From Mesostigma viride (Eukaryota; Streptophyta; Mesostigmatophyceae; Mesostigmatales; Mesostigmataceae), in NCBI GenBank assembly GCA_009746045.1, contig RPFO01000500.1:441199-505198 (forward strand): a stretch of DNA of 64,000 nt, given 5' to 3'. Positions 4,450 through 22,228 of the stretch are shown in pieces (positions within the stretch are counted from its first letter, which is position 1; the number at the start of each line of letters is the position of its first letter). The notes under the pieces were generated by a model, which had not been told where the DNA came from, searched no databases, and was given only the letters and a program-made list of their open reading frames with translations. Both the position numbers and the translations under genes were made by a program.

Positions 4450-5066
4450 AGTTAACGTAAAGGATTTACGTTAGATGGATAGAGATTGTTACGCTCTTTC
4501 CAACGGCACCTTGAACGCCTCATTTGGTTAAGGAACGTAAAAGTTATGACGTTTCCTAGGCTGTGCCGACAGTACCCGGCGCGCCACTGTGGGCGCGTAC
4601 GGACACAGGATGTACAAGTGTCACTTTGATAGTCCGCAGGACGTTGACAGGACTTGTACAGGACTTGATGGTCAATTGATAGGTAGGCGCACTGTAGCGC
4701 GCCAGGACCTATGAGACAATTGATGCTGACTAGTGTACGGATAGGTCCACAGGACTAGCCGTATGGACAATTGATAGATCTGCGCGCCAAAGGCGTGCCA
4801 GAGTCTGTGTAATCAATTGATTGACAGTTCAGCTGTGACAGTGCAGCTGAATACTTGGACGCGTCCCTAGTAAGCTATATGAGTGACTTGGTCACACCGG
4901 GACGCTAGTTCTTGCGTGCACGTTCTCTTGGCACTGCGACCCTGTCGTCTGTGCTGCGTGCAGTCTTGGAAGTGACGTGACTTACGTCTGTGTTTCCTGA
5001 TTGTTAATAAAGGCAACTTCCTGCAAGAACCATGGCGGAATTCGTGGCATTCTTACCCTCACAACT
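4450..5066 (+). repeat. 5' long terminal repeat
   Basis: 617 bp, beginning AGTTAACG and ending CTCACAACT, so the ends form a 4-bp inverted repeat AGTT/AACT instead of the usual TG/CA. It contains several CAATTGAT motifs (about 4671-4825), a TATA-like CTATAT at 4875 and AATAAA at 5006-5011. That order fits a U3 promoter followed by a polyadenylation signal. Confidence 0.9.
4875..4882 (+). promoter_or_regulatory. TATA-like box in the 5' LTR
   Basis: CTATATGA lies about 190 bp before the LTR end, downstream of the repeated CAATTGAT motifs. It is the best candidate core promoter for the element's transcript. The assignment rests on motif and position only. Confidence 0.4.
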
Positions 5067-5090
5067 CGTATTACAATAGTTTGCCTGTCA
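5067..5090 (+). promoter_or_regulatory. Primer-binding region complementary to 19682-19705
   Basis: These 24 nt start exactly at the LTR boundary (CGTATTACAATAG...) and match the reverse complement of 19682-19705 without mismatch. They do not begin with TGG, as sites for tRNA 3' ends do. The first base pairs with G19705, so an RNA 3' end made there would prime into the last LTR base. See the corresponding finding. Confidence 0.6.
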
Positions 5091-5095
5091 AAAAG

Positions 5096-5728
5096 ATGCC
5101 AAATTCGGAAGAATTTCGGATTCCGGACGATGAGGAAATAGCCGCTCCGCCGGCTGGTTCTTCGTCAAGACCGACGGTGCCGTCGTGGCAGCAATTGCTC
5201 GACGAAGTAACGGTCTCGCTCGACGAGCTTCATCGTCAGCAGCGTGCAGCTCACGCATTGCTCGGGGATAACCCCGAGGACCCCGATTTGCCAGCACTGG
5301 TGCCGGCAATCCGCAACCTGTTGGACCAGATTCGAAACATTTTATCGACATTTACGGTCCAGGTGCGGGGAGGTTTGCGGTCGGTGACCGAAGTCACGAC
5401 TGCCATTGAGGAGTTGGACAACGTCCTCTCTTCACTCACCGGTTACCAGAGAAACCTGCAAAACTGGGCATCGCTACGCACGGGGGGCGCGCCGGCGGTG
5501 TCGACAAATTTGTTTCAGGATCTCGCGCTGTTATCGCTGCTCACTCGCGGCGTACGCAGTCGCGAGCGCCAGGTTTTAATTAACCTGGTGGCATTTCTCG
5601 CCTCTGTGCGAGAGTGGATTCCCGCGGGGTGGGAATTATCCCTACCAGCCATTAAGAATGTACTCCAGCACGCAAAATGTACTTCGTACCGAAGTTTGTC
5701 TTTTTATGCTGAAAATTGTCATGCATGA
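5096..5728 (+). CDS. Unknown ORF directly after the primer-binding region
   Basis: Taking the first ATG (5096) gives 210 residues. The N-terminus is acidic (MPNSEEFRIPDDEEIAAPP), then a Pro/Ser linker, then mostly helical, hydrophobic heptad-like sequence (LDEVTVSLDELHRQQ, IRNLLDQIRNILSTF, LFQDLALLSLLTRGV). It sits 30 nt after the 5' LTR, the normal place for gag, but has no zinc knuckle and I recognise no family. It may be an extra structural or accessory protein of the retrotransposon, or the first ORF of a different element nested here. Its position suggests it would be the first frame met by ribosomes on the genomic RNA. Confidence 0.5.
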   Translation: MPNSEEFRIPDDEEIAAPPAGSSSRPTVPSWQQLLDEVTVSLDELHRQQRAAHALLGDNPEDPDLPALVPAIRNLLDQIRNILSTFTVQVRGGLRSVTEVTTAIEELDNVLSSLTGYQRNLQNWASLRTGGAPAVSTNLFQDLALLSLLTRGVRSRERQVLINLVAFLASVREWIPAGWELSLPAIKNVLQHAKCTSYRSLSFYAENCHA

Positions 5729-5733
5729 TGTTT

Positions 5734-6490
5734 GCAACCAAAATAGACCTCGTACAAAGTTTGGTATCGATCGGACGTCATCTTGGTGACATTTGCTAGC
5801 AATAAAGGTACATTTTTGTCATTTTTTGTTAAATTAAATAGTAATAAATAGGAAACAGTACTAAATCACGTCAAACCATCATGGATATTTGCAAGCAACC
5901 TAATTACCACTAGAATAGACCATGCACAAAGTTTGGGGTCAATCTGAACTCAAAATAGTGACGTTTGCTAGCATAAATACTGCATTTTTTGCCATTTTCA
6001 AGCATTTTGCTCAGTGTAAGCTACTAAACAATATCAAACTACGTCATAAAGCTATGAAATATTGGAAGCAACCTAAACACCACTAGATTAGACCATGGGC
6101 CAAGTTTGGGCTCAGTCTGACGTCAAAATAGTGACGTTTGCTAGCATAAATGGTGCATTTTTTGCCATTTTCAAGCATTTTGCTCAGTGTAAGCTACTAA
6201 ACAATATCAAACTATGTCAGAAAGCTATGAAATGTTGGAAGCAACCTAAACACCACTAGATTAGACCATGGGCCAAGTTTGGGCCCAGTTTGATCTCAAA
6301 ATAGTGACGTTTGCTAGCATAAATGGTGCAATTTTTGCCTTTTTCAAGCATTTTGGTAAGTATAGTTGCCTCAAACTATGTCAGAAAACTGTGAATTGTT
6401 GTAAATAACCTGTTTGCCACTACATTAGACCATCCTCAACTTGTAAGGTCAGGCATAGGTAAAGGTAGTGACATTTGCTAGCACTATATA
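5734..6490 (+). repeat. 173-bp tandem repeat, about 4.5 copies
   Basis: Units starting GCAACC at 5734, 5895, 6068 and 6241, plus a degraded one at about 6410, share landmarks such as AGATTAGACCATGGGCC, GTGACGTTTGCTAGCATAAA and TTTTTGCCATTTTCAAGCA. The middle units are nearly identical and the outer ones diverged, as expected for a satellite homogenised at its centre. No coding frame. Confidence 0.85.
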
Positions 6491-7148
6491 CAAGCATATT
6501 ATGCCTCTTTTCGCATATACACATTAAAAATAACAAGACATCATCATATCATGGCCTTAATACAAGGTGTGCAAATGCAAATCACACCAGATCGGATGAC
6601 CAATGATGGGTGGCTGCATGCCAACACATCTACCAGGCTGCAGGGTGAGAGGCCACATCGCTACAAGACAGGAATCCTCGCAATTGCACAACACCGCTAG
6701 TACACTGTGCACATACCCCAAGAGGATTTGGCTACAAGCCATAAAAGTTTGGCCATGCTAACACATTCTTCATCCAAGCAAAATGCAGCCTCTCCAAACT
6801 CAACTCATTGATTTAAATTCAGCTAGGCCAGGCGTGCATGCTCTACTTGCCGACAACCATGAGTAAACTTGTCTACCACTTCATTCCATGCGCCGGTAGA
6901 TGGCACCGTCTCATCTACCAGTCATCCCCGGCTCCCATTCCGCATCCTCCTCTCCCTCTCCCTCTCCCTCTTCCTCCTCCCCCTCCCCTCCCATTCTCCC
7001 TCCCCTCTCCCTCCCCTCTCTCCCCTCTCCCTCCTCCTCCCCCTCCTCCTCCCCCTCTTTCTCCCCCTCTTTCTCTCCCTCTTCCTCCTCCTCCCCGCCT
7101 TCACTGTCACTGTGCACAGCAGGGACGGCATCGTCTATGTGGGTGCCA
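6491..7148. repeat. Non-coding stretch with a pyrimidine-rich hexamer tract
   Basis: 6491-6940 shows no gene. From about 6942 to 7105 the plus strand is almost pure C/T, built from CTCCCT-like hexamers. The long open frames across it are artefacts of the tract. Confidence 0.7.
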
Positions 7149-8864
7149 TCACCTGCGTTCACGGTGCCAGCCTAGCTCCTGTGGAAAGAAGCGAGCGCGG
7201 CCAAATGCCTCGACTGGGTGTGGGCAGCCGCACACGAACTGCGTCACCTCCGCCAGGGCATGATAGTCCTCACACTGCCCATCAGCCCACATCGCCTTGA
7301 TGAGCAGGTGACCTCCCCTTTCCTGAACCTTAGTGACCCAGCCATGGAAGCGCTCCCTCTTCCTCGCTATCCCCGGAAACAGGGCACACAGGCGCATCCC
7401 GATAAGCGCACGTGCTCCATGCTCGGCAAAGTAGGCATTGCAGTCATCCTTTGCTGCTGCCCTGGCGGCGGTGGCAGTCTTGTAATGCTCAAAGTCAATC
7501 TGCGGGTGCTCTTTCAACGCCGCCACCGTGGCAGCTGACAGTTTGCCGGTACTGATCAGCTCAGGCTGGTGCACCTCTGCCGTACCGCCCACTGTCCAGT
7601 GCTGCAGGTGTACATCAGAAATGGGGACCGTCATCCCTGCGCTGCCGCCACCTAATGTCACTCTAGAAAACTGGCCCGTCCACGACGGTGCGTAGTAAGG
7701 AGAGGCGACAATGCTGTCACGCTCCGTGCGATCGCCTTCCAGATCAAGGACCTTCACCAGCATGTGTGGTGCCCACGGCATTCCCTGCCCGCAGGTGACG
7801 GCTGGCCGCTTAACAACGAGTAGGTCGCTGCGTCGTATGAGGCTTCCATTCACCTTGAAGGTGTGCCTGCCGGAAATCAGTGTGCGCAAAGCGGGCGTTG
7901 CCGTTGATGTGCTCCCTCGCGCAGCGGGCGCACATGCGCGGTTGATCTGCGCTTGAATCTCGCGGGCAGGGCAAGCGACGTGTGAGATTACTTGTTTTAT
8001 GGGCAGCCTCAGTGCTCGTGTTGCCCGCGCAACCGACTGGTCGCCTGCAGATCGCAGCGGTAAGGGTACCGCCTTGTTCGCTTGCAGTTCACGCTTCTCT
8101 TTGAGCTTTTGCTCCATGATGTCGAACAGATTCTCGTTGTTGGCACGCACATCCTCCACGGACTTTGGCACCTGCTCAATCCATCCGTCCAGCAACTGCT
8201 GCTTCTCAGCGGCGACGATGTCAGGAAAAAGGCTGTGAAGGCTAGCGCAGGTACATCTCCTGGCACCGCCCTCGTCCCATTCAAAAAGCGGCACTAGACC
8301 AGGACTTCCTTTGGGGGCCTTGCCACGCTCTATGAGGAGGCACCCATAGACAGGATCTCCCTGCGGGGTGTACCCAATGGGCGTGACCCCGTCACAAGCC
8401 TCGCCATTAGGCCCTGTGGGCTGCCACTTGTTCACCGGTGCATTTACCAACGTCTCCGATGCGGCTAGGCGCCAGCGGACATACACGGTCATATCCGGGC
8501 CCCAAAACACTTCGAGATCGAACACCTTCGAAGAGCGGTGCCTCTCCCTCTCGGCTTCGGTTGCTGGCTCATCATCCAAGTCGGCGGTGGCGCCCGCGCC
8601 CGCACCCGCGCCGGCGCCTGCGCCCCCACCCCCGCCCGCGCCCGCGCGCGCGCCTTGGGTGGCGCCCGCGCCCGCACCCGCGCCGGCGCCTGCGCCCCCG
8701 CCCCCGCCCCGCCCGGGCCCGCGCCCGCGCCCGCGTCTTGGGTGGCGCCCGCGCCCGCACCCGCGCCTTCTCCCCCGCCCCCGCCCCCGCCCGCGCCCCC
8801 GCCCGCGCCATGGGTGTGGCCCGCGGCTGGCTTCTTCGGAAATGCGTCCATCGATTTCACCCAC
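7149..8864 (-). CDS. Unknown 571-residue antisense protein with RG and GA repeats
   Basis: An uninterrupted minus-strand frame inside the leader of the LTR element. Residues about 20-95 are low-complexity RGRG and GAGA repeats encoded by GC hexamers. The remaining ~470 residues look like a normal globular protein (FDLEVFWGPDMTVYVRWRLA, VLDLEGDRTERDSI, CGCPHPVEAFGRARFFPQEL). A motif occurs twice: LHSLFPDIVAAEKQQLLDGW and LCALFPGIARKRERFHGW, suggesting an internal domain duplication. I recognise no family. Retrotransposon open frames antisense to gag-pol are unusual, so it may be host cargo or part of an earlier nested element. Another minus-strand frame lies just upstream (9337-9843) and may belong with it. 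Confidence 0.55.
   Translation of the reverse strand: MGEIDGRISEEASRGPHPWRGRGRGRGRGRGRRRGCGRGRHPRRGRGRGPGRGGGGGAGAGAGAGAGATQGARAGAGGGGGAGAGAGAGAGATADLDDEPATEAERERHRSSKVFDLEVFWGPDMTVYVRWRLAASETLVNAPVNKWQPTGPNGEACDGVTPIGYTPQGDPVYGCLLIERGKAPKGSPGLVPLFEWDEGGARRCTCASLHSLFPDIVAAEKQQLLDGWIEQVPKSVEDVRANNENLFDIMEQKLKEKRELQANKAVPLPLRSAGDQSVARATRALRLPIKQVISHVACPAREIQAQINRACAPAARGSTSTATPALRTLISGRHTFKVNGSLIRRSDLLVVKRPAVTCGQGMPWAPHMLVKVLDLEGDRTERDSIVASPYYAPSWTGQFSRVTLGGGSAGMTVPISDVHLQHWTVGGTAEVHQPELISTGKLSAATVAALKEHPQIDFEHYKTATAARAAAKDDCNAYFAEHGARALIGMRLCALFPGIARKRERFHGWVTKVQERGGHLLIKAMWADGQCEDYHALAEVTQFVCGCPHPVEAFGRARFFPQELGWHRERR
8579..8815. repeat. GC-rich hexamer array (GCGCCC-like)
   Basis: Runs of GCGCCC/GCACCC hexamers encode the RG/GA-repeat N-terminus of the antisense ORF. 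It is one of several different hexanucleotide arrays within the element. Confidence 0.8.
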
Positions 8865-9189
8865 CGGCCGTCAGCGGTGGATGCACCCTTTCGGCCACGT
8901 TGTGACATCAAGCGCGGCGTCCCCAATAGAACAGTCATGCAATATGAATAATCATTAGTATCAACGATGCGTTCATGCAGGCGTGAACTGTGAAATACAA
9001 CAAGCATGCAACAACGACTCCAGCACACTTAGTAAATACTGCTCATAATATCTGTGGCACATGCAACATGGTTAAAACACACATGGATGACCTGTATGGC
9101 TGCACATGAACTGTCCACCTAGAGAAGAATAGAAATTCAGCATGATATCAAGAGCCATCCACACAAATATATGTCTTACCGCAGCTTAG

Positions 9190-9331
9190 GGCTTCTTCGG
9201 GTTGAGTTGGCGAATCGAGCTTGTTGAGCCCTGCTCGAAGTAATGCTCAAATGCGATGCCCAGGCCCGCCAGCACATCATCAAATGTGATTAGTTTCACA
9301 GGTGGTCCGAAGAGTTCCAAACGTGGTTGCT
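9190..9331 (-). other. Possible antisense exon
   Basis: Minus-strand reading after a TTAG acceptor-like site gives QPRLELFGPPVKLITFDDV followed by LAGLGIAFEHYFEQG and a stop. The composition looks like real protein, yet it has no start codon. It could be a spliced exon downstream of the 9337-9843 frame. Confidence 0.3.
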
Positions 9332-9336
9332 AATTT

Positions 9337-9843
9337 TCAGGCAGTGCCTGAAGGCCGCCTCGAAAGTGAAACGCGAAAGTGAAAAGGGGTCACAAACCCT
9401 ATGTTCATATCCTTGACTCCCCCGTCGAGAACGAACCGAAAACCAGCGCCATGAACGAACTTGTGACGAGTAGATGACGACATCGTGGTTATGGCGTCGT
9501 ACCCCCCCTGGTGCAGCTGCTGCTTTATCGCCGCCTTCCTGTCCTCTTGCTTCCGCCCGGGCGAAAACCAGGCGCTTCGCAATGCCTGGAGATGTGATAT
9601 TCTAATGGGCTTCATGCACTCGTGGCCGCACTTACAGTCGAACGTCTCGTCGGTCACTAGGCTGCCGGCATGGGTGCTGCCGCTTAGCACTATGGCTGCG
9701 AACTTGCGCTTCCCATGGTGTCCCATCACCATGATAGCGAAAGCCAGGAAGCAGATAGCCACGATTATGTCCCAGCAAAGCCATAGCACACCTTCCGTTT
9801 CGACCGCCATGTCGGCCACTAGTCCGGATAGCTCAATGTGCAC
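9337..9843 (-). CDS. Unknown 168-residue antisense ORF with a hydrophobic helix and Cys motif
   Basis: It starts MHIELSGLVADMAVETEG. A strongly hydrophobic segment follows (residues about 18-41, LWLCWDIIVAICFLAFAIMV), then CKCGHEC, a possible metal-binding cluster, followed by a basic helical stretch (ALRSAWFSPGRKQEDRKAAI). No family is recognised; a transposase-associated zinc module is one guess. Its first 25 codons lie inside the left arm of the large palindrome, so an inverted second copy of that 5' end is present at 10311-10384. Confidence 0.4.
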   Translation of the reverse strand: MHIELSGLVADMAVETEGVLWLCWDIIVAICFLAFAIMVMGHHGKRKFAAIVLSGSTHAGSLVTDETFDCKCGHECMKPIRISHLQALRSAWFSPGRKQEDRKAAIKQQLHQGGYDAITTMSSSTRHKFVHGAGFRFVLDGGVKDMNIGFVTPFHFRVSLSRRPSGTA

Positions 9844-10384
9844 CTGACCTTGACACTAATCGCACAAACAGCCACAATTTTGCAAGCAAGAAGACATGGC
9901 TACCTCGGCATTTCATGAAATGTACTTCGTGAAATGCATTTCGTGAAATGTACTAAGGAACGTGATTGGCCGGCGTTCGCTCGCCAAATCTCGCAAAATG
10001 TACTAAGGCACGTGATTGGTCCCGCAAAATGTACTAAGGAACGTGATTGGCCGGCGAAGATTCTGTAGGGAATTTTAATTGCAGCAAACAGAATCTTCGC
10101 CGGCCAATCACGTTCCTTAGTACATTTTGCGGGACCAATCACGTGCCTTAGTACATTTTGCGAGATTTGGCGAGCGAACGCCGGCCAATCACGTTCCTTA
10201 GTACATTTCACGAAATGCATTTCACGAAGTACATTTCATGAAATGCCGAGGTAGCCATGTCTTCTTGCTTGCAAAATTGTGGCTGTTTGTGCGATTAGTG
10301 TCAAGGTCAGGTGCACATTGAGCTATCCGGACTAGTGGCCGACATGGCGGTCGAAACGGAAGGTGTACTATGGCTTTGCTGGGA
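9770..10384. repeat. Nearly perfect palindrome, 297-bp arms
   Basis: Left arm 9770-10066 and right arm 10088-10384 are reverse complements with one visible mismatch (9787 against 10367). The spacer is 21 bp, centred on 10077. Each arm contains three short repeats carrying ATGTACTAAGG and CGTGATTGGCCGGCG. Transcripts from either strand would fold into a ~300-bp hairpin. Such arms are normally unstable, so the duplication is probably recent. Confidence 0.95.
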
Positions 10385-10989
10385 TGATTATCATCGTAGT
10401 ACATCATATGTATTACAGTACATTTCACGAAGTACATTTCATGGAGGCAGAGGGAAAGTTCCTGTTCATGGTGAGTCGGGGTTAGCAATCACGGCAATGT
10501 CGATACATGTACTTGCAGTATATACAAATGCCATAATGTCCTTAGATGCAGCATGAATGTCTATTGTTCGGATTTCTTTTATCACGATGCTTAGGATGCC
10601 TTCCAACAGAAATCTGCTGCGCTACAGGTCGGGAATACCTGAACTTGATATGCGTGGCCAGTGGCCATGGCAGCCGGGGTCGGTAAGAATTAACTTCGAT
10701 AGCCATGAATAATGCGGAAAGTGAACGTTGTCCACCCGCTGCACAGGGAAAATGGCTGCACAGGAACGGCCTGACGTGATACTGTCGCAAAGCAGTTCTC
10801 ATAAGCCGACAATTACACATTCGACTTATGATCGATAATCGGCGCAGGCCTTCGACATTCAAGCGCGCATCGAAACGTCGTGAGGATTTCGGACATTTAG
10901 ATGAAGTTGGATTGTTTTCGGCCCTCGTATTTGCCATGATCTTGGCCATCCAATCTTTTTGCTTCGTGCACAGTTTGCGTTTGCAGTTA
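10385..10989. other. Non-coding leader segment
   Basis: A partial third copy of the palindrome-end repeat (GTACATTTCACGAAGTACAT) lies at 10419-10438. Nothing else is recognised; short frames here lack protein-like composition. Confidence 0.5.
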
Positions 10990-11070
10990 AGCGTAGGTAC
11001 ATGACAAGCTTGCGTTTGCGTTTGCGTTTGCGTTTGCCTTTGCCTTTGCCTTTGCGTATACATTTGCATG
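10990..11070 (+). repeat. (TTTGCG)n / (TTTGCC)n hexamer array
   Basis: About ten consecutive TTTGCG or TTTGCC hexamers. Together with the arrays at 11578-11744, 12018-12897 and 13190-13320 it makes this part of the leader a cluster of hexanucleotide repeats. 11071-11577 contains only T- and TGCA-rich sequence without a gene. Confidence 0.8.
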
Positions 11071-11577
11071 TGCGCTTGCGTTGCCGTTTGCTTATGCGTC
11101 CCAATGTATGTCTGGCTTTGGGCAATTCTATTTCCTTGTCGTTGGGATATGAGTGGGTGCTGGCGGTGGTGTTACTGTCGGCAGGTAGAGTGGCAGTGGC
11201 TTCAACTTCTGTTGCTTTTTCATTGCATTTGCATTTTCATTGGGTCTCTGTAGTTAACAACTGCTTTAAATATCTTTGTTAATAGCCGGCTTCAGCTGTA
11301 ATTTCGATTGCATGTTGCTTTTGAATTGCATTCGCACTGGGCACATGCAGTGGGCATTAGGCATTGGTAGTGCAATTACACATGCAGTCACACTTGCAAT
11401 TGCAATGAAGTTGAAATTGAAGCTGCAGCTAAAATTTGCTACGTGCCTACTGGTACAGTCGCATGTGCAGTCAACTTTGTGCTTGTTTATTATTATTATT
11501 TCTTCTTCTTATAATTTCTTCTTATTATTATTATAATTTCTTCTTGCTTTTCGTAATGTGTGGTGGTTAGAATGGTG

Positions 11578-11744
11578 ATGGCAGGGGCAGGAGCAGGGGC
11601 AGGGGCAGGGGCAGGGGCAGGGGCAGGGGCAGGGGCAGGGGCAGGGGCAGGGGCAGGGGCAGGGGCAGGGGCAGGGGCAGGGGCAGGGGCAGGGGCAGGG
11701 GCAGGGGCAGGGGCAGGGGTAGGGGCAGGGGCAGGGGCAGGGGC
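11578..11744 (+). repeat. (GGGGCA)n hexamer array
   Basis: About 27 tandem copies with few interruptions. Every repeat brings a G4 run, so the sense RNA or DNA strand is expected to form G-quadruplexes. The GAGAGA frame across it is a repeat artefact. Confidence 0.95.
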
Positions 11745-12017
11745 AATCATGAGTTGCTTTCGGCCTGGCATGTGCACCAGAACTGGCATATGTGCTCGCA
11801 ATGCAGCTTGCTACTCTTGTTCCTTTTGTTTGCCTTTTCTTTTGTTTGGGAACTGTTCGTGCAGGGGGGTGGGATGAGGCCGCGAGTCTCTGGGCAGGGG
11901 CATTGACGTGGGTAGGTGTGTGTCTGGGCTAAGTCTGCAATTGTCGCTGCTGTGCTGTACTTCTGGCTGTGGCTTACGGTGCATTTGTGGCTTGGAGTAG
12001 GGGTGAGGCTAGGGTGG

Positions 12018-12897
12018 GCGCAGGCGCGGGCGTGGGCGTGGGCGTGGGCGTGAGCGTGGGCATGGGCGCGGGCGTGGGCGTGGGCGTGGGCGTGGGCGTG
12101 GGCGTGGGCGTGGGTGTGGGCGTGGGCGTGGGCGTGGGCGTGGGCGTGGGCGTGGGCGTTGGCATGGGCGTGGGCGTGGGCGTGGGCGTGGGCGTGGGCG
12201 TGGGCGTGGGCGTGGGCGTGGGCGTGGGCGTGGGCGTGGGCGTGGGCGTGGGCGTGGGCGTGGGCGTGGGCGTGGGCGTGGGCGTGGGCGTGGGCGTGGG
12301 CGTGGGCGTGGGCGTGGGCGTGGGCGTGGGCGTGGGCGTGGGCGTGGGCGTGGGCGTGGGCGTGGGCGTGGGCGTGGGCGTGGGCGTGGGCGTGGGCGTG
12401 GGCGTGGGCGTGGGCGTGGGCGTGGGCGTGGGCGTGGGCGTGGGCGTGGGCGTGGGCGTGGGCGTGGGCGTGGGCGTGGGCGTGGGCGTGGGCGTGGGCG
12501 TGGGCGTGGGCGTGGGCGTGGGCGTGGGCGTGGGCGTGGGCGTGGGCGTGGGCGTGGGCGTGGGCGTGGGCGTGGGCGTGGGCATGGGCGTGGGCGTGGG
12601 CGTGGGCGTGGGCATGGGCATGGGCGTGGGCGTGGGCGTGGGCGTGCGCGTGCGCGTGGGCGTGGGCGTGGGAGTGGGCGTTGGAGTGGGCGTGGGCGTG
12701 GGCGTGGCGTGGGCGTGGGCGTGGGCGTGGGCGTGGGCGTGGGCGTGGGCGTGGGCGTGGGCGTGGGCGTGGGCGTGGGCGTGGGCGTGGGCGTGGGCGT
12801 GGGCGTGGGCGTGGGCGTGGGCGTGGGCGTGGGCGTGGGCATGGGCGTGGGCGTGGGCGTGGGCGTGGGCGTGAGCGTGGGCGTGGGCGTTGGCGTG
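12018..12897 (+). repeat. (GGGCGT)n hexamer array, about 145 copies
   Basis: An 880-bp array of GGGCGT with rare substitutions (GGGCAT, GGCGTT) and one single-base phase change at about 12706. It encodes GV, WA or RG runs depending on frame, none of which is a gene. 12898-13000 is a unique spacer that repeats the sequence before the array (GGCTTGGAGTAGGGGTGAGG at 11990 and 12977), so the array and its flank were duplicated as a block. Confidence 0.95.
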
Positions 12898-13000
12898 GGT
12901 AGGTGTGTGTCTCAGCTACGTCTGCTATTGTTGCAGCTGCGCTCTACTTCTGGCTGTGGCTTTGGGTATAATTGTGGCTTGGAGTAGGGGTGAGGCTAGG

Positions 13001-13320
13001 GTGGGCGTGGGCGTGGGCGTGGGCGTGGGCGTGGGCGTGGGCGTGGGCGTGGGCGTGGGCGTGGGCGTGGGCGTGGGCGTGGGCGTGGGCGTGGGCGTGG
13101 GCGTGGGCGTGGGCATGGGCGTGGGCGTGGGCGTGGGCGTGGGCGTGGGCGTGGGTGAGAATGGGCGGGTGCGGGGGCAGGGGCATGGGCATGGGCGGGG
13201 GCGGGGGCGGGGCGGGGGCGGGGGCGGGGGCGGGGGCGGGGGCGGGGGGGGGGCGGGGGCGGGGGCGGGGCGGGGGCGGGGGCGGGGGCGGGGGCGGGGG
13301 CGGGGCGGGGGCGGGGGCAT
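13001..13320 (+). repeat. (GGGCGT)n followed by (GGGGGC)n
   Basis: A second GGGCGT array (13001-13155) preceded by the same flank as the first. After an interlude it passes into GGGGGC-type repeats (13190-13320). 13321-13985 holds a G-rich remnant, a GT run and AT-rich sequence with TAGTACA/TAGTTCA motifs (13890-13985), without a recognisable gene. Confidence 0.95.
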
Positions 13321-14455
13321 GGGCGTGTGCATGGGCGTTGGGGGGTCAGGGGGCTGGGGTTGGGTTTGGGTGGGTGGGTCATTGGTGCAATGTTTGGAGT
13401 TGGGGCTTGTGTGTGTGTGTGGGGGGGGGGGCATGGGGATTGCCATGCGCGTGCACGTGGGCGTCCGCGTGATCCTCTGTTCGTGTACATGTTCATGCAT
13501 GTGCCATGACGGCACAATGCATGTCAGATTCGTGACTTTATCGTGTGTTCCCTAGTTGCAAGTATTACTGCTAAAATTCATTGCAGCATTCCATTCCTTG
13601 CATAATGCTTGATTGCTTGCATCAGTTCATTCTATACTTCGATCATGACCTGAAGTGCTTAAGTATTACCAGACTCTCGTGCAGTGTCAGAATGTCCAAT
13701 TTTTAGCACACATGCATGTTTGCACACCAAAGCCCTCATTCCCATGTTGATAAGGCTAAGTAAAACATTTTTTTTTTGTGCGGTGATCCACGAAATGCAG
13801 CTGTGAATGGCTCTAGGAGGTCACCAATGGTGGCCAGACCTGTTATTGAGCATTGGGAGACGTTACAGGGGCATCAATCACAGTTACATTTAGTTCAGAT
13901 GTAGTTCAATTTAGTACATTATAGTATAAATGTAGTAGAAAATAGTACAACCTAGTATATTGTAGCATATACTAGTTCAACTACCTCCAGATGAGATCCA
14001 GGGGCTATGGGGACACTTTTTATGCAAAACTGAACTTGAAACAAGCAAAAAACAAGAAACTTGGAAAAACTCAAAATGTACTTGTGCTGGAGTACATTCT
14101 TAACGGCTGGCAGGGTATTGACGATCTTTACACATCCTCTGCGCCTCGTCGCGCGTCGGCGCGTCGCAACTTACGCGGCGGGGAGCACGCCGGTTTTAAT
14201 TCATACCGGTGCAGGTCCGGAGCTGGATATGGAGGATCGTGAGTTCGTATACACGTACTGCGACTTCAGGGGCCTTGACTACTAGTCGGCCTAATTTTCT
14301 TCTGCAGTACTCGTCGACATTTTTTTTTGTCGAATTTTCAGCGGCATTTCGCGGGGCGGCAGCGACACCGGCGCAGGCGGCAGTGGCGACACAAAATTTT
14401 GTACATATTTTCTGCTGCTTTGTTAAGGTGTTCTTTGAATAGCTGGTAGTGCAGG

Positions 14456-15571
14456 ATGGCTGAGGGACGCCGTAGCAAGGGTCCAGCCAGTGGGAATAAT
14501 AATGGGGGTGCTGGTAGTGGAACCGCTCACGTAGATGACGTGGGGCTTACCGGAGAGATTACCAACCTTCCTCACAATAATAATAATGCACAAGCTATTC
14601 ATGGCTTTGATCTTACCACACAGGGTCTTTTAATTGTCAATCAGTTGCAGCCTGTAACCTCAGACTCCAAGCCTAAGCAGGCTGAAGAGTTTGTGGAGGG
14701 ATTGGAAGGGTTCCCTAGCTTGTACGGTGGTACAAATTACTATCAAATCTGGATAGGCAGTAGCACTTTTGGCAAGTGTACTGACCAGATTAAGGACCTA
14801 ACCAGGGAGTGCAAAAAGGCCAATAAGGCCTGGGCACTGTACGTGGCTGAGCTGAAGGAGCTGCTGGAGGACCAACGCAAGAAGGTCGGCATCCATTGGC
14901 AGGACAAGTATCAAGGGTGGGAGGTCAAGGGGGACCTGATCCAGAACTTTCTCAACTATTGTAAGATGGTTGAGGAGGGCAGGGCTCACGGCTTTAATGT
15001 AGCTGATAACATAGCCCTAACCAACTGGCTCAAGGTTTCTGGGCTGGATAAGGCGACACGTGGCTCCTTAAAAGTCATGTGTGCCCCACACTCTACCCTG
15101 AAGGCCTACAAGGTCATCATTAAACAAGCTCTCGAGGCAGAGGAGCTGTTTGAGGGTGGAGTGCCAGCAGTGAAGGCTACCCAGGCAGGCGGGCGTACCC
15201 AGGGTGGCTCCAAGACGTCTGAGGCTGACCGAAGCCAAGGAGGGCGTAGGGGCAACCATCACAAGCGCAAGGGAGATCATTCACCTGATTCTGACAGGAG
15301 GTCACACTCCAAGTCGGTGTTCAGGCGGGTGGGTGGTCAGCCCAAGCAGGGCAACGCGTCTGACAATGGGGGCAGTGGCCAGGGCAAGTCCAAGATACAA
15401 TGCTACCTGTGCAAGGGGTGGGGGCACATCAAGAAGGAGTGTCCCAGCTTCAAGAAGTCCCAGGGCCAGGGCAGCAACAAGAATAACAACAACAACAAGA
15501 AGAACAACAACAAGTCCCAGGCAGGCCAGCCTTCAAAGGGCAGTCAGCAAGAAGACAACAAGGAGCAGTGA
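14456..15571 (+). CDS. gag: Gag protein of the Copia-type element
   Basis: 371 residues. The Asn/Gly-rich N-terminus is followed by a helical capsid-like region (about 80-235) and a basic linker. A CCHC zinc knuckle, CYLCKGWGHIKKEC, lies at residues 316-329 (Cys-X2-Cys-X4-His-X4-Cys), then an Asn/Lys-rich tail. Gag packages genomic RNA in virus-like particles. The ATG at 14456 follows a short upstream stretch rich in T and C. The frame ends in TGA (15569-15571), and the same frame stays open without any further stop through pol to 19196, so readthrough would produce a Gag-Pol fusion. Confidence 0.85.
   Translation: MAEGRRSKGPASGNNNGGAGSGTAHVDDVGLTGEITNLPHNNNNAQAIHGFDLTTQGLLIVNQLQPVTSDSKPKQAEEFVEGLEGFPSLYGGTNYYQIWIGSSTFGKCTDQIKDLTRECKKANKAWALYVAELKELLEDQRKKVGIHWQDKYQGWEVKGDLIQNFLNYCKMVEEGRAHGFNVADNIALTNWLKVSGLDKATRGSLKVMCAPHSTLKAYKVIIKQALEAEELFEGGVPAVKATQAGGRTQGGSKTSEADRSQGGRRGNHHKRKGDHSPDSDRRSHSKSVFRRVGGQPKQGNASDNGGSGQGKSKIQCYLCKGWGHIKKECPSFKKSQGQGSNKNNNNNKKNNNKSQAGQPSKGSQQEDNKEQ
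15569..15571 (+). promoter_or_regulatory. In-frame UGA between gag and pol (candidate readthrough stop)
   Basis: Codons read GAG CAG TGA CTG TCT, with gag and pol in the same frame and no other stop between 14456 and 19196. UGA followed by CU is a known leaky context in several eukaryotic and viral genes; whether it leaks here is inferred. Confidence 0.5.
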
Positions 15572-18500
15572 CTGTCTGAGGCAACCCCTACACACCTTAA
15601 TTCACCCAAGGGGGAGGCCAGGTGCTCCAATGCAGATTTTATATCTGGGCAACAAGAGGGTGATCTCCAGGTTCAGTGTGGCCCCAGGTCACCTGGAGAG
15701 GTACAGGTTCCTATGAAGACGTCCTTGACAGCTGATGCAGCTGTAAGTATGTCTGACCCTATGCATCCTCGTGCTGGGCACGAGGGTGGACCTCTCATTT
15801 TGAGAGAAACCAATGTACAACCACAGAGGGGTGTGAAGGCCTCTGGTGGTATGCATGTGGTCCCTGCTGGCGGTCCAGGTGTTGGGCATGAGCAGGGTGA
15901 CTCAGGCTCTGAGTCAGAACAGGATGGAAGTCAGCATGGTGATGCTGGACAACCTGACAGCACAGTCCTGACTGTGCCAGGGACTGCTTCCTCTGTGTAC
16001 CAGGAGTTGGGTGCCCGAATCCACAACATGTTTGGGCATGCCACTTCTCTGTCAAACAACTTTGCCTTCCGTATGGGCAGGGCACCCCTTCTTAAGGCGT
16101 GTCAGCAAGCTGCCTCACGGTGTAAGTGCCAGTTGTCCTCCAACAAGCCCAGGAAATCACATGCCAAAGCTCTACCTCAGAGCATTGGTGATCTGCAGTG
16201 TGATATCCAACACATCAGGGGCATGCAACTGTTGGTGTGCGTGGACAGGTACACGAAATACAAGGTGCTGGAGCATTTACCTTCTATGAAGAACAGGTAC
16301 TTGCTGGCTGCCCTGCAGAATGTAAGAGCCAAGTTTCCTACCACAAGGATCCAGGTGGACATGCAGTTTCAGCATCTCAAGGGTGATCCTACCCTTCCTG
16401 AGTTGCTGGTTACACCTAGGGAGGCTCATGGGCAGCAGGGTGCTATCGAGAGGGCAATCCAGGAGGTCAAGAAATTGATCATCTCTGAAGACTGGGTACC
16501 CTTGTCTGCACCTGCACTTGTCAGGAGTGCATGGCTGAGGAACGTGGAGCAGCAGCTGAACAGCAGGGTTAACTTCTACTATGATGGAGTTGCTGTCAGC
16601 CCAATGGGTCTATATCATGGCCTGTGCCCACCACATGTGCTGGAGGGCTGGAAACATGCTGCACATGTCACCTTTGCCAAGCTGAGGGAGAAGGACCGGG
16701 GTTGGAAGATGCTGGAGCCACAAGTGGGTCAGAAGGTCCTAGCTTGGAAGGAACCTAGCCTTTATGGCAAACGTGGTAGCTGGAGTCCTGGGGTGGTTAC
16801 CCAGGTTGATGAAGCTAGCCACGCATGCTTGGTCAGCATGGAGGACGAACCAAAGCATGTACACCGGCTGAGTTGGTCATATGTCAAGCCTAACCTGATG
16901 AATGAGGGCAGTCAGGCACAAGGCTCACAGGATCTGCAGGATTTTCAGGTCCCAGGTGACATCACTGACGCAACGACCACATCTGTTGCAGGGGAATCTG
17001 TCAGCCCTGGCCAGGTTGCAGAGGTACTTGTTGAACAGGCTGCAAGGTCAACAGCTGGGGAGTCAACTGTCAAGCCCAAGGCACTAACCAAGCCCAGGGG
17101 GACAAGTTTGGCTGGATTGATTGGGGCTCTACAAAGGGCCAAGAAGCAGCCCAAGGTAGCCAAGCTCAGGTGGCATGGCAATCTGGGGCTGGACACTGCC
17201 TTAGAGGTAGACACTAATTCTCAGGTCTCCATTATTGGGACCAGGGCTGCAGCAGGGTACAGCATGTCTGAACCCAGCTATCAGTTTGTGTCTGACTTCA
17301 GTGGCGGGGTACACGTGAAGGTACTGGGTGAGGTATTCATTCCTATCCTTGGACAGGACACTGCTTTTTGTGTCTTGGAGGGCTATCAAGGACCTGCTCT
17401 TCTGGGGCAGAATTTCCTATGCCAGGATGGGGTAGTGATCACGTCCTCTCTCCTGACTAAGGAAGGGGCTGGTCAGGTCCCACTGATTAATTTCAGGACC
17501 ACTCACCTATCACGTGCAGTAACCAGGACGGTTAAGCGTGTGCAAGTGTGCCAGGGGCAGGAGCCCTTGGTTGATGACCTCATACTGCCAGCTGCTAGTC
17601 ATCCAAGCAGTTTGGGCATTGGTCCTCACTCACTTGCTGGACACAGCCCTATCAACTACCAAGGCCTGGTGAAGCTCATGTCCTCTCCCATTATGTGTCC
17701 CCAGGTCACACTGGGTCTGATTAAATCTGGGGAGGACTGGATCTCCAAGAAATGCGTGGAACCTGTCAATGACCTGCCTCCTGCACGACGTCTACTCAAG
17801 CTCAAGTTTGTCATCAAGATGAAGGAGGTGGACGGGGTCAAGGTACCACATGTCAGGCCAGTGCTGAATGAGTTCAAGGGTACTGGTGAGTGCACTGCTG
17901 AGGAGTTGTATACCCCTGGCATGCTGCATGATACTTGGAGGCTGCTGCTGTGTGTCTTTCTAGGCCTTCTCAACAAGGGCTTGGACTATGGCTCAGTGGT
18001 GATAGACTTCAAGAGGGCATTTCTGGAGGGTGATGCAGATGTGGCACAGGAAAAGTGGGAGGGCAAGACGCCTTTCTATGTTAGGGTGCCTGCTGTATGG
18101 AAAAGGGACATCCACACGGAGTTCCTTAAAATCCTCAAGGGCCTGGAGGGCCTGAGGTCAAGTCCAATAATCTGGAGGGAGACTCTCAACCGTTTCCTGA
18201 AGGAGCATTGCAACTTGAAGGTCTCTCCTGTAGACCCCTGTCTGTTTCTGGGGCAATGGGAAGGCCTGCCAGTGTATGCTTCGCTGCACGGGGATGACCT
18301 ACATCTGATAGCTCCCACGTCGTGGCTTAAGGAGCTGATCACCATCATTAAGTCCAAGTTTCCTCTGGGTAGGGAGCAATGGCAGGTGGAGAATGAGCCT
18401 CTGCTGTTTGTGGGCATGGAGGCCACACTGGTGAAGAAGGGAGGGGAGTGGCGTATGCTGCTGGTGGGGGGCAATGACTATCAAGAGACCCTCATTAGCA

Positions 18501-19198
18501 AGCTTCCTCCAACCATCACACAGGCACTGTGTCCCATGGTGAGGGGCATGGTTGCTTGGGTGGCAGGCATTTCCAGGCCAGACCTTATGGTCATAGCCAG
18601 GTTGCCTGATGACATGCTGGTGGAGCTAGGGTCTGCCAAGGTGGCTGATCAGGTCAGGGCTTCATCTGGCATTCTGTTGTCTGCAGTGGATTTATCACAA
18701 CCCATTTGCATGGAGCTGTATGTGGATAGCTCAATGGACAGCAGGCAGGTCTCCAAGGTCAGGGGCAGGGCTGCAGGGCTCTTTGTGCTCAGACAGGAAG
18801 GCCTGGGGAGTTTGGTGAGCTGGTTTAGTCGCCTGCACAAACGGGTGGCTGTCAGCAGTGATGTGGCAGAATGCAGGGCTATTTGTGAAGGCATTCACAC
18901 AAGCCTTTATCTGAAGGAGTTGCTTCATCAGATGACTTCTAACACTCCTTGGCCACTTCAGGTTACCACTCTTCTAAAAACAGACTCCATGGGGATGGTG
19001 CAGTTTGTGCACAGGCAGATGGCCAGAAGTAGGGACTTGGATTATCTCCTTCTTAAGGAGTTGTCCTCCTTGGCCAATATTGAGCATATCCCTGGGGTTG
19101 ACAATCCTGCTGATGCTTTGACCAAGCTAGTGCAGAAGGCAGCAGTGCAATACAAGGTTCTTCAGTCTCTGATGGACCCATCTCAGCAAGCTGTCTAA
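15572..19198 (+). CDS. pol: Pol polyprotein: integrase, protease-like, RT, RNase H (Copia type)
   Basis: The frame opens right after the gag UGA (1208 residues); the first ATG is at 15713 (1161 residues, numbering used here). Order: HHCC-like zinc region (HNMFGH at 104, RCKC near 137); integrase core with D164, D216 and E246 (GAIERAI; the D-E gap of 29 is shorter than the usual 35); a C-terminal WSPGVVTQVDE patch; a retropepsin-like region with DTN at 500-502 and ALLGQNFL; RT with DFKRAFLEGD (Asp765) and catalytic HGDD (Asp861-Asp862) instead of YVDD; RNase H with YVDSS (Asp1005), AECRA and NPAD. Copia elements normally run protease-integrase-RT-RNase H, so the protease position is anomalous. 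DTN replaces DTG/DSG. If translated alone, pol would need internal initiation at 15713. Confidence 0.85.
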   Translation: MSEATPTHLNSPKGEARCSNADFISGQQEGDLQVQCGPRSPGEVQVPMKTSLTADAAVSMSDPMHPRAGHEGGPLILRETNVQPQRGVKASGGMHVVPAGGPGVGHEQGDSGSESEQDGSQHGDAGQPDSTVLTVPGTASSVYQELGARIHNMFGHATSLSNNFAFRMGRAPLLKACQQAASRCKCQLSSNKPRKSHAKALPQSIGDLQCDIQHIRGMQLLVCVDRYTKYKVLEHLPSMKNRYLLAALQNVRAKFPTTRIQVDMQFQHLKGDPTLPELLVTPREAHGQQGAIERAIQEVKKLIISEDWVPLSAPALVRSAWLRNVEQQLNSRVNFYYDGVAVSPMGLYHGLCPPHVLEGWKHAAHVTFAKLREKDRGWKMLEPQVGQKVLAWKEPSLYGKRGSWSPGVVTQVDEASHACLVSMEDEPKHVHRLSWSYVKPNLMNEGSQAQGSQDLQDFQVPGDITDATTTSVAGESVSPGQVAEVLVEQAARSTAGESTVKPKALTKPRGTSLAGLIGALQRAKKQPKVAKLRWHGNLGLDTALEVDTNSQVSIIGTRAAAGYSMSEPSYQFVSDFSGGVHVKVLGEVFIPILGQDTAFCVLEGYQGPALLGQNFLCQDGVVITSSLLTKEGAGQVPLINFRTTHLSRAVTRTVKRVQVCQGQEPLVDDLILPAASHPSSLGIGPHSLAGHSPINYQGLVKLMSSPIMCPQVTLGLIKSGEDWISKKCVEPVNDLPPARRLLKLKFVIKMKEVDGVKVPHVRPVLNEFKGTGECTAEELYTPGMLHDTWRLLLCVFLGLLNKGLDYGSVVIDFKRAFLEGDADVAQEKWEGKTPFYVRVPAVWKRDIHTEFLKILKGLEGLRSSPIIWRETLNRFLKEHCNLKVSPVDPCLFLGQWEGLPVYASLHGDDLHLIAPTSWLKELITIIKSKFPLGREQWQVENEPLLFVGMEATLVKKGGEWRMLLVGGNDYQETLISKLPPTITQALCPMVRGMVAWVAGISRPDLMVIARLPDDMLVELGSAKVADQVRASSGILLSAVDLSQPICMELYVDSSMDSRQVSKVRGRAAGLFVLRQEGLGSLVSWFSRLHKRVAVSSDVAECRAICEGIHTSLYLKELLHQMTSNTPWPLQVTTLLKTDSMGMVQFVHRQMARSRDLDYLLLKELSSLANIEHIPGVDNPADALTKLVQKAAVQYKVLQSLMDPSQQAV

Positions 19199-19639
19199 GC
19201 TGGTGCATGGTTATAGGGCATTGGAGAGCAGATTGTGTGGTAGTGTCAGCATTGTGACTGGCATAATACCTGTATTTTAGTCTGTACTAAGGCTCATGGA
19301 CCATGGTACACTCACTCTGATTTTAATCAGGATACAGCCAGGTTTTGGCTGGGGTTCATGCTGTTGACTACACAAGGTTGACAGGTCCATTACAGACCAT
19401 GTATTCTATTTTAAAAGAAATGTATATTTGTACATACCTCTCACAATGGTCTGGGAACCTTTATTCTGGGGTTTATAGGGCGGGGTTCGATTCCCTGGTA
19501 TTATGTTTCTACAAGCTGGCCTGTTCAGGTGTTTGCCTGTTCAGACTTCCCTAGTTCCCCAGGGCAGGATTTAATTGTTGCCTATGTGTTTCATTTTGTC
19601 ATTTGTTTGCTGTGGCAGTTTACCATCTGGCAAGTAGAC
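19199..19639 (+). other. 3' untranslated region of the retrotransposon
   Basis: AT-rich, without a coding frame. It contains GGGGTTCGATTCCCTGG (about 19482-19498), which resembles a tRNA T-arm/B-box, although no tRNA can be folded around it. No LTR-like sequence matching the region before gag was found here. Confidence 0.4.
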
Positions 19640-19660
19640 GGGCGCCGTAAGACGGGCGCC
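19640..19660 (+). promoter_or_regulatory. GC-rich hairpin before the candidate self-primer
   Basis: GGGCGCC-GTAAGAC-GGGCGCC can form a 6-bp all-GC stem. It lies 21 nt upstream of the segment complementary to the primer-binding region and might mark or stabilise that RNA end. The function is inferred. Confidence 0.5.
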
Positions 19661-19681
19661 AATAGACCCCTGTTGAGAGAA

Positions 19682-19705
19682 TGACAGGCAAACTATTGTA
19701 ATACG
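19682..19705 (+). promoter_or_regulatory. Segment complementary to the primer-binding region
   Basis: The reverse complement of 5067-5090 over all 24 nt; similarity stops on both sides. In sense RNA the two segments can pair, joining the two ends of the transcript. Cleavage after G19705 would leave a 3' end positioned exactly at the LTR junction. Confidence 0.6.
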
Positions 19706-20128
19706 CCTTACTTTGTCAAGTGGTATTTTAATTGTCATGGATTTATTGTACTTATATTGAATATGTACTGGGTTTTATGGGATTAGTATCTGGGATTAAT
19801 GTAACTCACCGCCAGAAGGTCATTGTACTGGAGGCTCTACCGAGGTGATGGGATTAATTCCTGGAGAAGACCTCATAGAATTAACCTGTATGTATTTAAT
19901 TTTGTGTGCTTCTAATATCTGGTGGTACTCTGTAATGCCACTTCCATAGGTTTTCTCCATTTCTCATGAAATGGTTTTCCCTGTGGCAGATCTGTTTCTT
20001 TTCCAGTTCCTTAAAAGAAAGGGCTGGGGGAATGGCATTGGCCATTAAAGACATCTGTTCAAGCTTCAAGCTGGAGTGAAGGACATTTCAAGCTACTTCA
20101 AGGGTCCCTGGCAGGGGATGTGACCCCT

Positions 20129-20147
20129 AAAGAAAAGAAGGGATTGG
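20129..20147 (+). promoter_or_regulatory. Polypurine tract before the 3' LTR
   Basis: AAAGAAAAGAAGGGATTGG immediately precedes the 3' LTR. Such RNase H-resistant purine runs prime plus-strand DNA synthesis in LTR elements. The two T residues near its end are slightly atypical. Confidence 0.7.
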
Positions 20148-20764
20148 AGTTAACGTAAAGGATTTACGTTAGATGGATAGAGATTGTTACGCTCTTTCCA
20201 ACGGCACCTTGAACGCCTCATTTGGTTAAGGAACGTAAAAGTTATGACGTTTCCTAGGCTGTGCCGACAGTACCCGGCGCGCCACTGTGGGCGCGTACGG
20301 ACACAGGATGTACAAGTGTCACTTTGATAGTCCGCAGGACGTTGACAGGACTTGTACAGGACTTGATGGTCAATTGATAGGTAGGCGCACTGTAGCGCGC
20401 CAGGACCTATGAGACAATTGATGCTGACTAGTGTACGGATAGGTCCACAGGACTAGCCGTATGGACAATTGATAGATCTGCGCGCCAAAGGCGTGCCAGA
20501 GTCTGTGTAATCAATTGATTGACAGTTCAGCTGTGACAGTGCAGCTGAATACTTGGACGCGTCCCTAGTAAGCTATATGAGTGACTTGGTCACACCGGGA
20601 CGCTAGTTCTTGCGTGCACGTTCTCTTGGCACTGCGACCCTGTCGTCTGTGCTGCGTGCAGTCTTGGAAGTGACGTGACTTACGTCTGTGTTTCCTGATT
20701 GTTAATAAAGGCAACTTCCTGCAAGAACCATGGCGGAATTCGTGGCATTCTTACCCTCACAACT
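20148..20764 (+). repeat. 3' long terminal repeat
   Basis: 617 bp, same start and end as the 5' LTR and no difference seen on reading. AATAAA lies at 20704-20709. It is followed by GCTGG (20765-20769) and the interrupted LINE ORF2. Confidence 0.9.
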
Positions 20765-21423
20765 GCTGGCTTCCTGACACCGCCGACGATGTGGACACCC
20801 GCATTGGCCTTGCCTGGGCCAAGCTCCGTTCGCTCACACCCTACTGGCGCTCGAAGGGCCTGAACGGGCACCGCAAGCGCATGCTCTTCAAGGTCCTCGT
20901 CCTCACGGTGCTCACGTATGGCGCCGAGGCGTGGACCCTCCCCCCCAAACTGGCAGCTCGGCTCGACGGCACAGTTTACAGGATGCTCCGGCAGGTCCTT
21001 AATGTAGGTTTTTCCGAGCGTCCGTCATCAGAGTCTCTGTATCATGGCATGCCTCGTGTTTCGGACGAGATTAGACAGCGTAGGATAGCATTTGTAGGAC
21101 ACCTTGCCCGCACCAGCCAGGTCGACACCACCCTTGGTCTGGCCGGCCCCCAGCGGCTTGGACAGCCAGGGCGGCACATTCTGACCTGGCCTGGCCCCAA
21201 GGACATTCCCAAAAGGGTAGGGAAACCTGTCACCAACTACGTTCAGATGCTGATGGACGACCTCGTGGTCCCAGCCCAGTTTGAGCACCGCATCCACTCT
21301 CTCTCCCGTCTTTGGACTGCCATGCAGGACAAGACGCGGTGGAAGAAGATTGTCAAGGCGCACACGCCCGACCCTGTGGGCAAGCCACCTCCCCCCAAGC
21401 GGAGGAGGCGTTTTGATGAGTAG
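20765..21423 (+). pseudogene. LINE ORF2, C-terminal region
   Basis: It continues the LINE frame after the LTR element: GLAWAKLRSLTPYW, LTYGAEAWTL and the conserved Leu/Arg pattern MLRQVL, then a basic tail KPPPPKRRRRFDE before a stop at 21421-21423. This stretch is typical of the region downstream of the RT palm in APE-type LINEs. It is open over its whole length, unlike the frameshifted 5' portion. Confidence 0.8.
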
Positions 21424-21779: not shown

Positions 21780-21788
21780 ATGGATGGG

Positions 21789-22228
21789 TGGGTGCAAACA
21801 GTCCTACCGGTCTAAGCTATCTACATCAGCTACCTACGACATCTATCTAACAGCAACTAACTACAACATCTATCTATACAGCATCACGTGGCCCTAGGGG
21901 AGCTGTCGATCTGGCGTGCCTCCCGTGGGTTTGCACACGAGGGCGCTTCCCCACAGGGGGGGGCTCGTTGTGGTGAGGTGTCTACCTGGTTGGTGCGAGC
22001 TAGGTGCCCTACTAGCTGCAGGCGCCGCTGCTTAACAACTATGGAAGTCCTATAGTTGTCTCACGTAATTATCAAGGAGACAACCAGTATTATTATAGTT
22101 TTCTCACTTGATGGATCATGGATAAACATCGATGCATGCACAATAAATATAATAATTCTTGATAATAATTTGGCAGAGAACTAATGATCAACCGTTCGGA
22201 TGTCACTTCTAGTTCGGAAACCAGTAGC
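21789..22228. other. Intergenic stretch before the CFAP96 3' end
   Basis: It begins with the right flank of the LINE target repeat (to about 21830). At 22054-22088 the dispersed motif GTTGTCTC...ATCAAGGAGACAACCAG forms a short inverted repeat. No gene seen. Confidence 0.5.

Follow-up and report, generated by a model that had tools for sequence, protein, structure and literature searches.

A high-copy LTR retrotransposon of the green alga Mesostigma viride probably primes minus-strand DNA synthesis with a segment of its own 3' untranslated region

Background

A 64,000-nucleotide (nt) stretch of the genome of the green alga Mesostigma viride (assembly GCA_009746045.1, contig RPFO01000500.1, positions 441,199 to 505,198; hereafter, the window) contains a long terminal repeat (LTR) retrotransposon in which the 24 nt that follow the 5' LTR recur, as a perfect reverse complement, between pol and the polypurine tract. 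Which RNA, then, primes the reverse transcription of this element? For plant LTR elements, excerpts of a survey distinguish three types of primer, namely, whole tRNAs, half-tRNAs and a self-primer that was sought in the 5' LTR (PMC6317226). We propose that this high-copy element primes minus-strand DNA with a segment of its own 3' untranslated region (UTR), and we put the probability of this reading at roughly three in four. The complementarity at the LTR edge is conserved and covaries between families, and in some copies the site has been replaced by the complement of the 3' segment; together, the covariation and the rewriting of the primer-binding site (PBS) suggest that a piece cleaved from the RNA of the element itself serves as primer.

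Results

Complementarity at the LTR edge

Positions 5067-5090 of the window (CGTATTACAATAGTTTGCCTGTCA) are the perfect reverse complement of 19682-19705 over 24 nt, and the similarity stops at both edges. The exact match between the two LTR regions extends over 620 bp (4447-5066 and 20145-20764) and takes in a chance TGG at its left end; the LTR proper, AGTT...AACT, measures 617 bp (4450-5066 and 20148-20764) and is identical at the two ends of the element. Given the GCTGG target-site duplication and the AGTT...AACT termini, 5067 is the first base after the LTR (base +1), so that the complementarity starts exactly at the LTR edge. It is also the longest perfect inverted repeat in the 7,222 nt of the element that are left without the nested insertion and the 3' LTR, the next longest being 12-nt palindromes, and the chance of an anchored 24-mer is about 6e-11. 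The element has two LTRs, a target-site duplication, a polypurine tract and gag/pol, that is, all the hallmarks of an LTR retrotransposon. The features of the window copy are as follows (ORF, open reading frame).

4445-4449, unstranded: target-site duplication GCTGG, left; repeat flanking the element
4450-5066, plus strand: 5' LTR AGTT...AACT, 617 bp, identical to the 3' LTR (LTR comparison)
5067-5090, plus strand: PBS of the window copy, consisting of the 9-nt family core CGTATTACA and 15 further nt, all 24 nt complementary to 19682-19705; canonical copies have CGTATTACACGCTCTGTCA
5096-5638, plus strand: start of the first ORF of the element, interrupted by the nested insertion
5640-14115, unstranded: nested insertion, outside the proposed mechanism; without counterpart in the copies compared
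14450-15571, plus strand: gag-like ORF closed by TGA; its CCHC zinc knuckle scores below Pfam's cut-off (ORF, Pfam)
15572-19198, plus strand: pol, in frame after the TGA, with integrase-like, protease-like and RVT_2 reverse transcriptase stretches (ORF, Pfam, alignment)
19622-19640, plus strand: 5' strand of a predicted stem enclosing the 3' segment (folding)
19641-19660, plus strand: G+C-rich hairpin GGCGCC...GGCGCC, upstream of the 3' segment (sequence, folding)
19682-19705, plus strand: 3' segment, proposed self-primer; in canonical copies, its core (19697-19705, TGTAATACG) is complementary to the 9 nt that follow the LTR (complementarity)
19706-19726, plus strand: 3' strand of the predicted stem, starting directly after the proposed primer end (folding)
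20128-20147, plus strand: polypurine tract before the 3' LTR (sequence)
20148-20764, plus strand: 3' LTR, identical to the 5' LTR
20765-20769, unstranded: target-site duplication GCTGG, right; repeat flanking the element

The first-pass annotation of this locus had reported the 24-nt complement with its sharp edges, placed the LTR boundary at 5067 and considered the coincidence unlikely by chance; sequence comparison reproduces the complement, the identical LTRs and the GCTGG duplication fix the boundary, and the chance estimate agrees. The GC hairpin that it noted before the segment is likewise present, at 19641-19660. The element is not to be taken as 16 kb long: the 8.5-kb stretch 5640-14115 is an insertion missing from the two copies compared over it (L010 and L014), and the element is about 7.8 kb long.

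Copies of the family and states of the primer-binding site

The genome searched comprises 440 Mb in 2,243 contigs, in which DNA and protein searches gave 38-45 places among the matches listed. The pol of the window copy, assigned to family A, matches at 100% (rounded) in each of the 38 places listed for it, and a full 5' LTR that is 99.5-100% identical to that of the window precedes pol in 19 of 20 loci read upstream; the stretch read upstream of pol in the twentieth (L056) contains no 5' LTR. Because its copies are identical to this extent in pol and LTR, family A is to be judged young. Of 30 loci with pol, window included, 29 carry the 3' segment TGACAGGCAAACTATTGTAATACG without any change, and one (L030) departs inside the segment. 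Genome-wide, it occurs in 728 places with at most three mismatches, compared with none for the reversed control, and all of the first 100 places are exact.

Junctions between LTR and PBS were collected near pol and by a pattern with a gap between CGTATT and CTGTCAAAAAGATGCC, both matched without mismatch, which excludes larger insertions such as that in L055. The 27 rows sampled near pol represent 26 places (L003 and L050 are one place), of which 22 have the canonical CGTATTACACGCTCTGTCA, one is the window and three have extra bases at the LTR edge. The pattern search returned 279 junctions; as with the segment places, the first 100 in contig-number order were classified. The canonical CGTATTACACGCTCTGTCA accounts for 89 of these, a 12-nt insertion at the LTR edge (CGTATTACAACT) for six, CGTATTACAATCTCTGTCA, in which CG is replaced by AT, for three, and four extra nt at the LTR/PBS edge and the window-type site for one each. 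Two further extra-base patterns at this edge are found among the 26 places near pol. The 24-nt match was thus rejected as a conserved feature of the family, the copies compared having other sequence at the site.

These variants can be compared with the 3' segment base by base. The canonical site pairs with the segment over 9 nt from the LTR edge and then over 6 nt (CTGTCA with TGACAG), and between the two paired blocks lie the unmatched CGCT of the site and GCAAACTAT of the 3' segment. The window copy has ATAGTTTGC in place of CGCT, and this is exactly complementary to GCAAACTAT. The three AT copies, whose 3' segments are unchanged, have AT in place of the first two unmatched bases; ATAGTTTGC starts with the same two bases, so that these sites agree with the complement of the 3' segment over 11 nt. 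In retroviruses, plus-strand synthesis extends over the end of the tRNA primer and thereby writes primer sequence into the PBS. An RNA primer ending at 19705 and copied into DNA would yield just the products observed, 11 nt in the AT copies and at least 18 nt in the window, and the 24-nt match, a rare state of the site in family A, is best read as a trace of such primer copying. The 12-nt insertion fits a 10-nt primer copy ending CGTATTACAA that re-annealed by its ACAA to the matching LTR end CACAACT; the last base of CGTATTACAA mismatches the canonical site. Plain slippage at the shared ACA explains this insertion equally well, and it is therefore counted only as a sign of priming or strand transfer at the LTR edge. 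Small insertions at the LTR/PBS edge in L042, L050 and L055 (near-identical copies) and in L070 (CAGT, in family B2, described below) may reflect stutter of the reverse transcriptase at initiation or strand transfer.

For 48 of the first 100 segment places, a junction is listed on the same strand at a distance of no more than 20 kb, which in 40 cases is 5.8-6.2 kb. Another of the 100 is the PBS of the window itself, and for the remaining 51 no junction is listed within 20 kb. Five of these 51 (L074-L078), read over 80 nt, are element 3' UTR with 0-1 mismatches and look like copies in which the 5' part was lost or altered; the junction-less places may be truncated copies or a deletion derivative. 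Short overlapping deletions in the 3' UTR of two copies (L029 and L035) match window positions 19400-19428. No relatives were confirmed in viral contigs, bacterial genome contigs or plasmids; an 18-mer match in a viral contig (L001), which comes without the 24-nt site at up to four substitutions, was set aside as chance.

Covariation between related families

The window pol is closest to two proteins, P0002, with 56% identity over the part searched, and P0003 (38%; source name eukprot:jgi/Mesvir1). P0003, which has places of 100% identity in the same genome as the window, represents family B and is 35% identical to the window pol in the alignment. Family B has a 501-bp LTR, AGTT...AACT, followed by CGTACTCAAA, and its 3' UTR contains TTTGAGTACG at a distance of 35 nt upstream of the LTR; copy C2089, in which the 5' end was read, carries this segment in its own 3' UTR as well (L064). 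In another B copy (C80), there is no 5' LTR within 5.3 kb upstream of pol. A third family, B2, is 77-80% identical to P0003. Its LTR is followed by CGTACTCTTA in C1458 and C2111 and, with an inserted CAGT in between, in C113, and each of the four 3' UTRs read contains TAAGAGTACG; the 5' piece read for C2156 did not reach the LTR end.

The 3' UTRs of B and B2 align with the segment in the same column, and two adjacent positions have changed together with their partners about 4.7 kb away, a compensatory change from TTTGAGTACG/CGTACTCAAA to TAAGAGTACG/CGTACTCTTA. Between A and B, three of the nine paired positions differ, and A, B and B2 all have CGTA at the LTR edge and its counterpart TACG at the segment end. 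The longest stretch over which leader and 3' UTR are perfectly complementary starts at +1 in each family and spans 9 nt in A, 10 nt in B and 10 nt in both B2 copies measured; of 20,000 shuffled 3' UTRs, 110 (A), 7 (B), and 2 and 2 (B2) did as well.

The covariation that the first-pass annotation had suggested as a check is thus present between families A, B and B2, as three PBS sequences, each with a 3'-UTR partner from base +1. Its self-primer reading gains support from this covariation; what it took as the basis, the 24-nt match, is the rare state, the norm in family A being 9 nt followed by the 6-nt block.

Structure of the element and its context

Folding of the region 19612-19740 in family A gives z = -3.69, better than all 200 shuffles, and the 3' strand of the predicted stem follows directly on the 3' segment. 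A similar stem can be drawn in B (z = -0.95) and B2 (z = -0.34), in neither case significant. A stretch resembling a tRNA T-arm/B-box (GGGGTTCGATTCCC) in the 3' UTR (window 19478-19499) recurs in a further family, C, which is 63% identical to P0002 (L073:207-240), with a similarity of 91% over 35 nt. It is the only part of the 896 nt after pol in family C that aligned to the 3' UTR of A. A known RNA family at the priming site was rejected: Rfam, run on 4300-20900, gives only three miRNA-type matches below gathering scores, all located in the nested inverted repeat. ARAGORN (bacterial code) detects no tRNA in the window.

The pol gene consists of 1,208 codons in the same frame as the gag-like ORF. 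The two are split only by a TGA followed by C (15569-15571), and stop readthrough is possible. The RVT_2 match (E = 4.1e-06; 27 vs 31.6 bits) is below Pfam's cut-off; in the window pol, a weak integrase-like stretch occupies residues 208-263 (E = 0.039) and the reverse transcriptase 733-930, and in P0002 an integrase-like stretch (214-265, E = 0.15) is followed by a protease-like one (557-628, E = 0.086; only in P0002), all of these matches being weak. The order in pol seems to be integrase, protease-like, reverse transcriptase, unlike that in copia, where the protease comes first. An HHCC-like column pattern, then DT[NQ]xQVS and then reverse transcriptase are common to the window pol, P0002 and P0003 in the alignment.

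The nested insertion contains a perfect 297-nt inverted repeat with a 21-nt loop (9770-10384), the source of the sub-threshold miRNA-precursor matches, and a 1.3-kb GTGGGC repeat array (12014-13338). Inverted repeats of 49 nt, 94% complementary, lie at 2-50 and 21780-21828, and the LTR element possibly resides inside a DNA transposon.

Discussion

Proposed mechanism and the points that weigh against it

In the mechanism that we propose, complementarity between the 3'-UTR segment (TGTAATACG in A, TTTGAGTACG in B and TAAGAGTACG in B2) and the 9-10 nt that follow the 5' LTR would bring the 5' and 3' regions of the genomic RNA into pairing, as the conserved complementarity suggests. The RNA would be cut after ...TACG, which in the window copy would create an RNA 3' end at 19705, and this new end, lying opposite base +1 after the LTR, would be extended into U5-R. 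In later plus-strand synthesis, copying would proceed through U5 into the first part of the RNA primer, still attached, as it does into the tRNA in retroviruses. It would usually stop after about 9 nt, a stretch over which primer and site agree, and so leave no mark; sometimes, a longer copy would rewrite the site with the complement of the primer, 11 nt in three of the listed copies and at least 18 nt in the window. The nearest model for the nuclease responsible would be found in Tf1-type elements, where a cut is also needed (PMC4600332).

Several points weigh against self-priming from the 3' UTR. Pairing, cutting, extension and primer copying are all deduced from sequence. A cut at 19705 would part pol and the 3' LTR on the RNA that gives the primer, so that a second RNA would be needed for strand transfer; Ty particles hold two RNAs (PMC4974528). 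CGCT is kept inside the site in 89 of the 100 junctions listed, and if the 3' segment always primes, plus-strand copying must therefore usually stop at 9-10 nt or be repaired. The AT change involves only two bases, and the three AT copies may share one ancestor; the window type was found once among the 100 junctions listed, in one assembly. The segment places (728) outnumber the junctions (279), with no junction listed for 51 of the first 100, of which five, read over 80 nt, are element 3' UTR. Taken alone, the pairing in A is modest (110/20,000 shuffles), and the segment takes no part in the lowest-energy whole-length duplex computed for the leader and 3' UTR of canonical A, duplex energies of leader and 3' UTR over the whole length being uninformative. 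Finally, family C has no TACG in the 896 nt after pol; the same 896 nt contain no purine run of nine or more either, and family C therefore does not provide a negative case for the pairing.

Alternative explanations

The most serious alternative, though still an unlikely one, is that the pairing only circularises the genomic RNA, like CYC5/CYC3 of Ty1, and a host RNA primes. Conserved complementarity alone would fit this explanation, and interaction between the RNA ends is needed for reverse transcription of Ty1 and Ty3, in the excerpted account (PMC4974528). However, complementarity of the Ty1 CYC kind lies outside the primer site, and that observed here involves the LTR-adjacent site itself: in all three families, its first base is +1 after the LTR, the very position at which a primer has to end. 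Circularisation does not predict rewriting of the site by the complement of the segment, and it would call for a separate host RNA in each family, each mimicking the 3' segment of that family. We consider it quite improbable that a host RNA, a tRNA fragment or other, is the primer and that the 3' UTR carries a captured copy of its end. Half-tRNAs do serve as primers in some copia lineages (PMC6317226, in excerpt), and the context has been read for only part of the 728 segment places, but those read (29 pol loci and the five junction-less places) lie in elements, and three families would each have captured a different primer end. In agreement with the first-pass annotation, the sites begin with CGTA in A, B and B2 and not with TGG, the start of a site complementary to a tRNA 3' end; the lack of a TGG start, together with a PBS that differs between families and is matched each time within the element, argues against a tRNA primer.

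Self-priming from the RNA 5' end of the Tf1/Sushi type is a known mechanism (PMC4600332), and self-priming has been proposed for some plant copia families (PMC6317226), again in excerpts of these sources. The longest anchored match of the LTR to the site is, however, 4 nt in A, 4 nt in B and 3 nt in B2, so a primer of this type in the LTR was excluded for the three families, and we regard this explanation as highly improbable; the contrast with Tf1 that the first-pass annotation had drawn agrees with LTRs in which no more than the first 3-4 nt of the site find a complement. It had also doubted that a DNA transposon had inserted at the LTR edge, with the 24-nt arms as its terminal inverted repeats. 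The arms are perfect in the window copy, but they do not travel together: other copies keep the LTRs, pol and the 3' arm and, like the canonical ones, have no 24-nt 5' arm, so that this candidate was rejected and hardly any weight is left to it.

Relation to known systems and significance

In retroviruses, the PBS takes on the sequence of the primer, as we propose for the window copy; the primer there is a host tRNA. The remaining comparisons draw on excerpts of the cited sources. As in Tf1/Sushi and Tj1, the element's own RNA would provide the primer, which would pair beside the LTR and depend on a cut for its 3' end, but in those elements it is the LTR-encoded RNA 5' end, and here it would lie in the 3' UTR between pol and the polypurine tract (PMC4600332). 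The TAR lineage, Houba and Osr-1 are copia-related elements with proposed self-priming, and this family may be copia-related too; the difference is that the survey sought their putative self-primers in the 5' LTR (PMC6317226). The CYC5/CYC3 pairing of Ty1 and the 5'-3' bipartite PBS of Ty3 similarly provide pairing or bridging between RNA ends that serves the initiation of reverse transcription, but these elements are primed by initiator tRNA-Met, and here the 3' segment itself appears to have the primer sequence (PMC4974528). No LTR element with a 3'-UTR-encoded primer was found in the titles and abstract openings listed by searches of the openly licensed PubMed Central literature. What appears to be new is thus the place of the primer, the self-primers described in these sources being located in the 5' LTR and the one proposed here in the 3' UTR.

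With somewhat less confidence than for priming in the family itself, we favour the existence of a clade of algal LTR retrotransposons with a further way of priming, in which a 3'-UTR segment, cut out of one genomic RNA or freed at its 3' end, primes another, or the same RNA once circularised, and in which copies keep traces of primer copying. If so, with a primer in its 3' UTR the element would no longer depend on host tRNAs, reverse transcription would be tied to RNA whose ends have met, and one packaged RNA would be cut so that another can be copied. Surveys that seek self-primers only in the LTR would miss the 3'-UTR kind. The hundreds of copies in this alga would record how far the primer was copied, and the RNA and cDNA ends are directly mappable.

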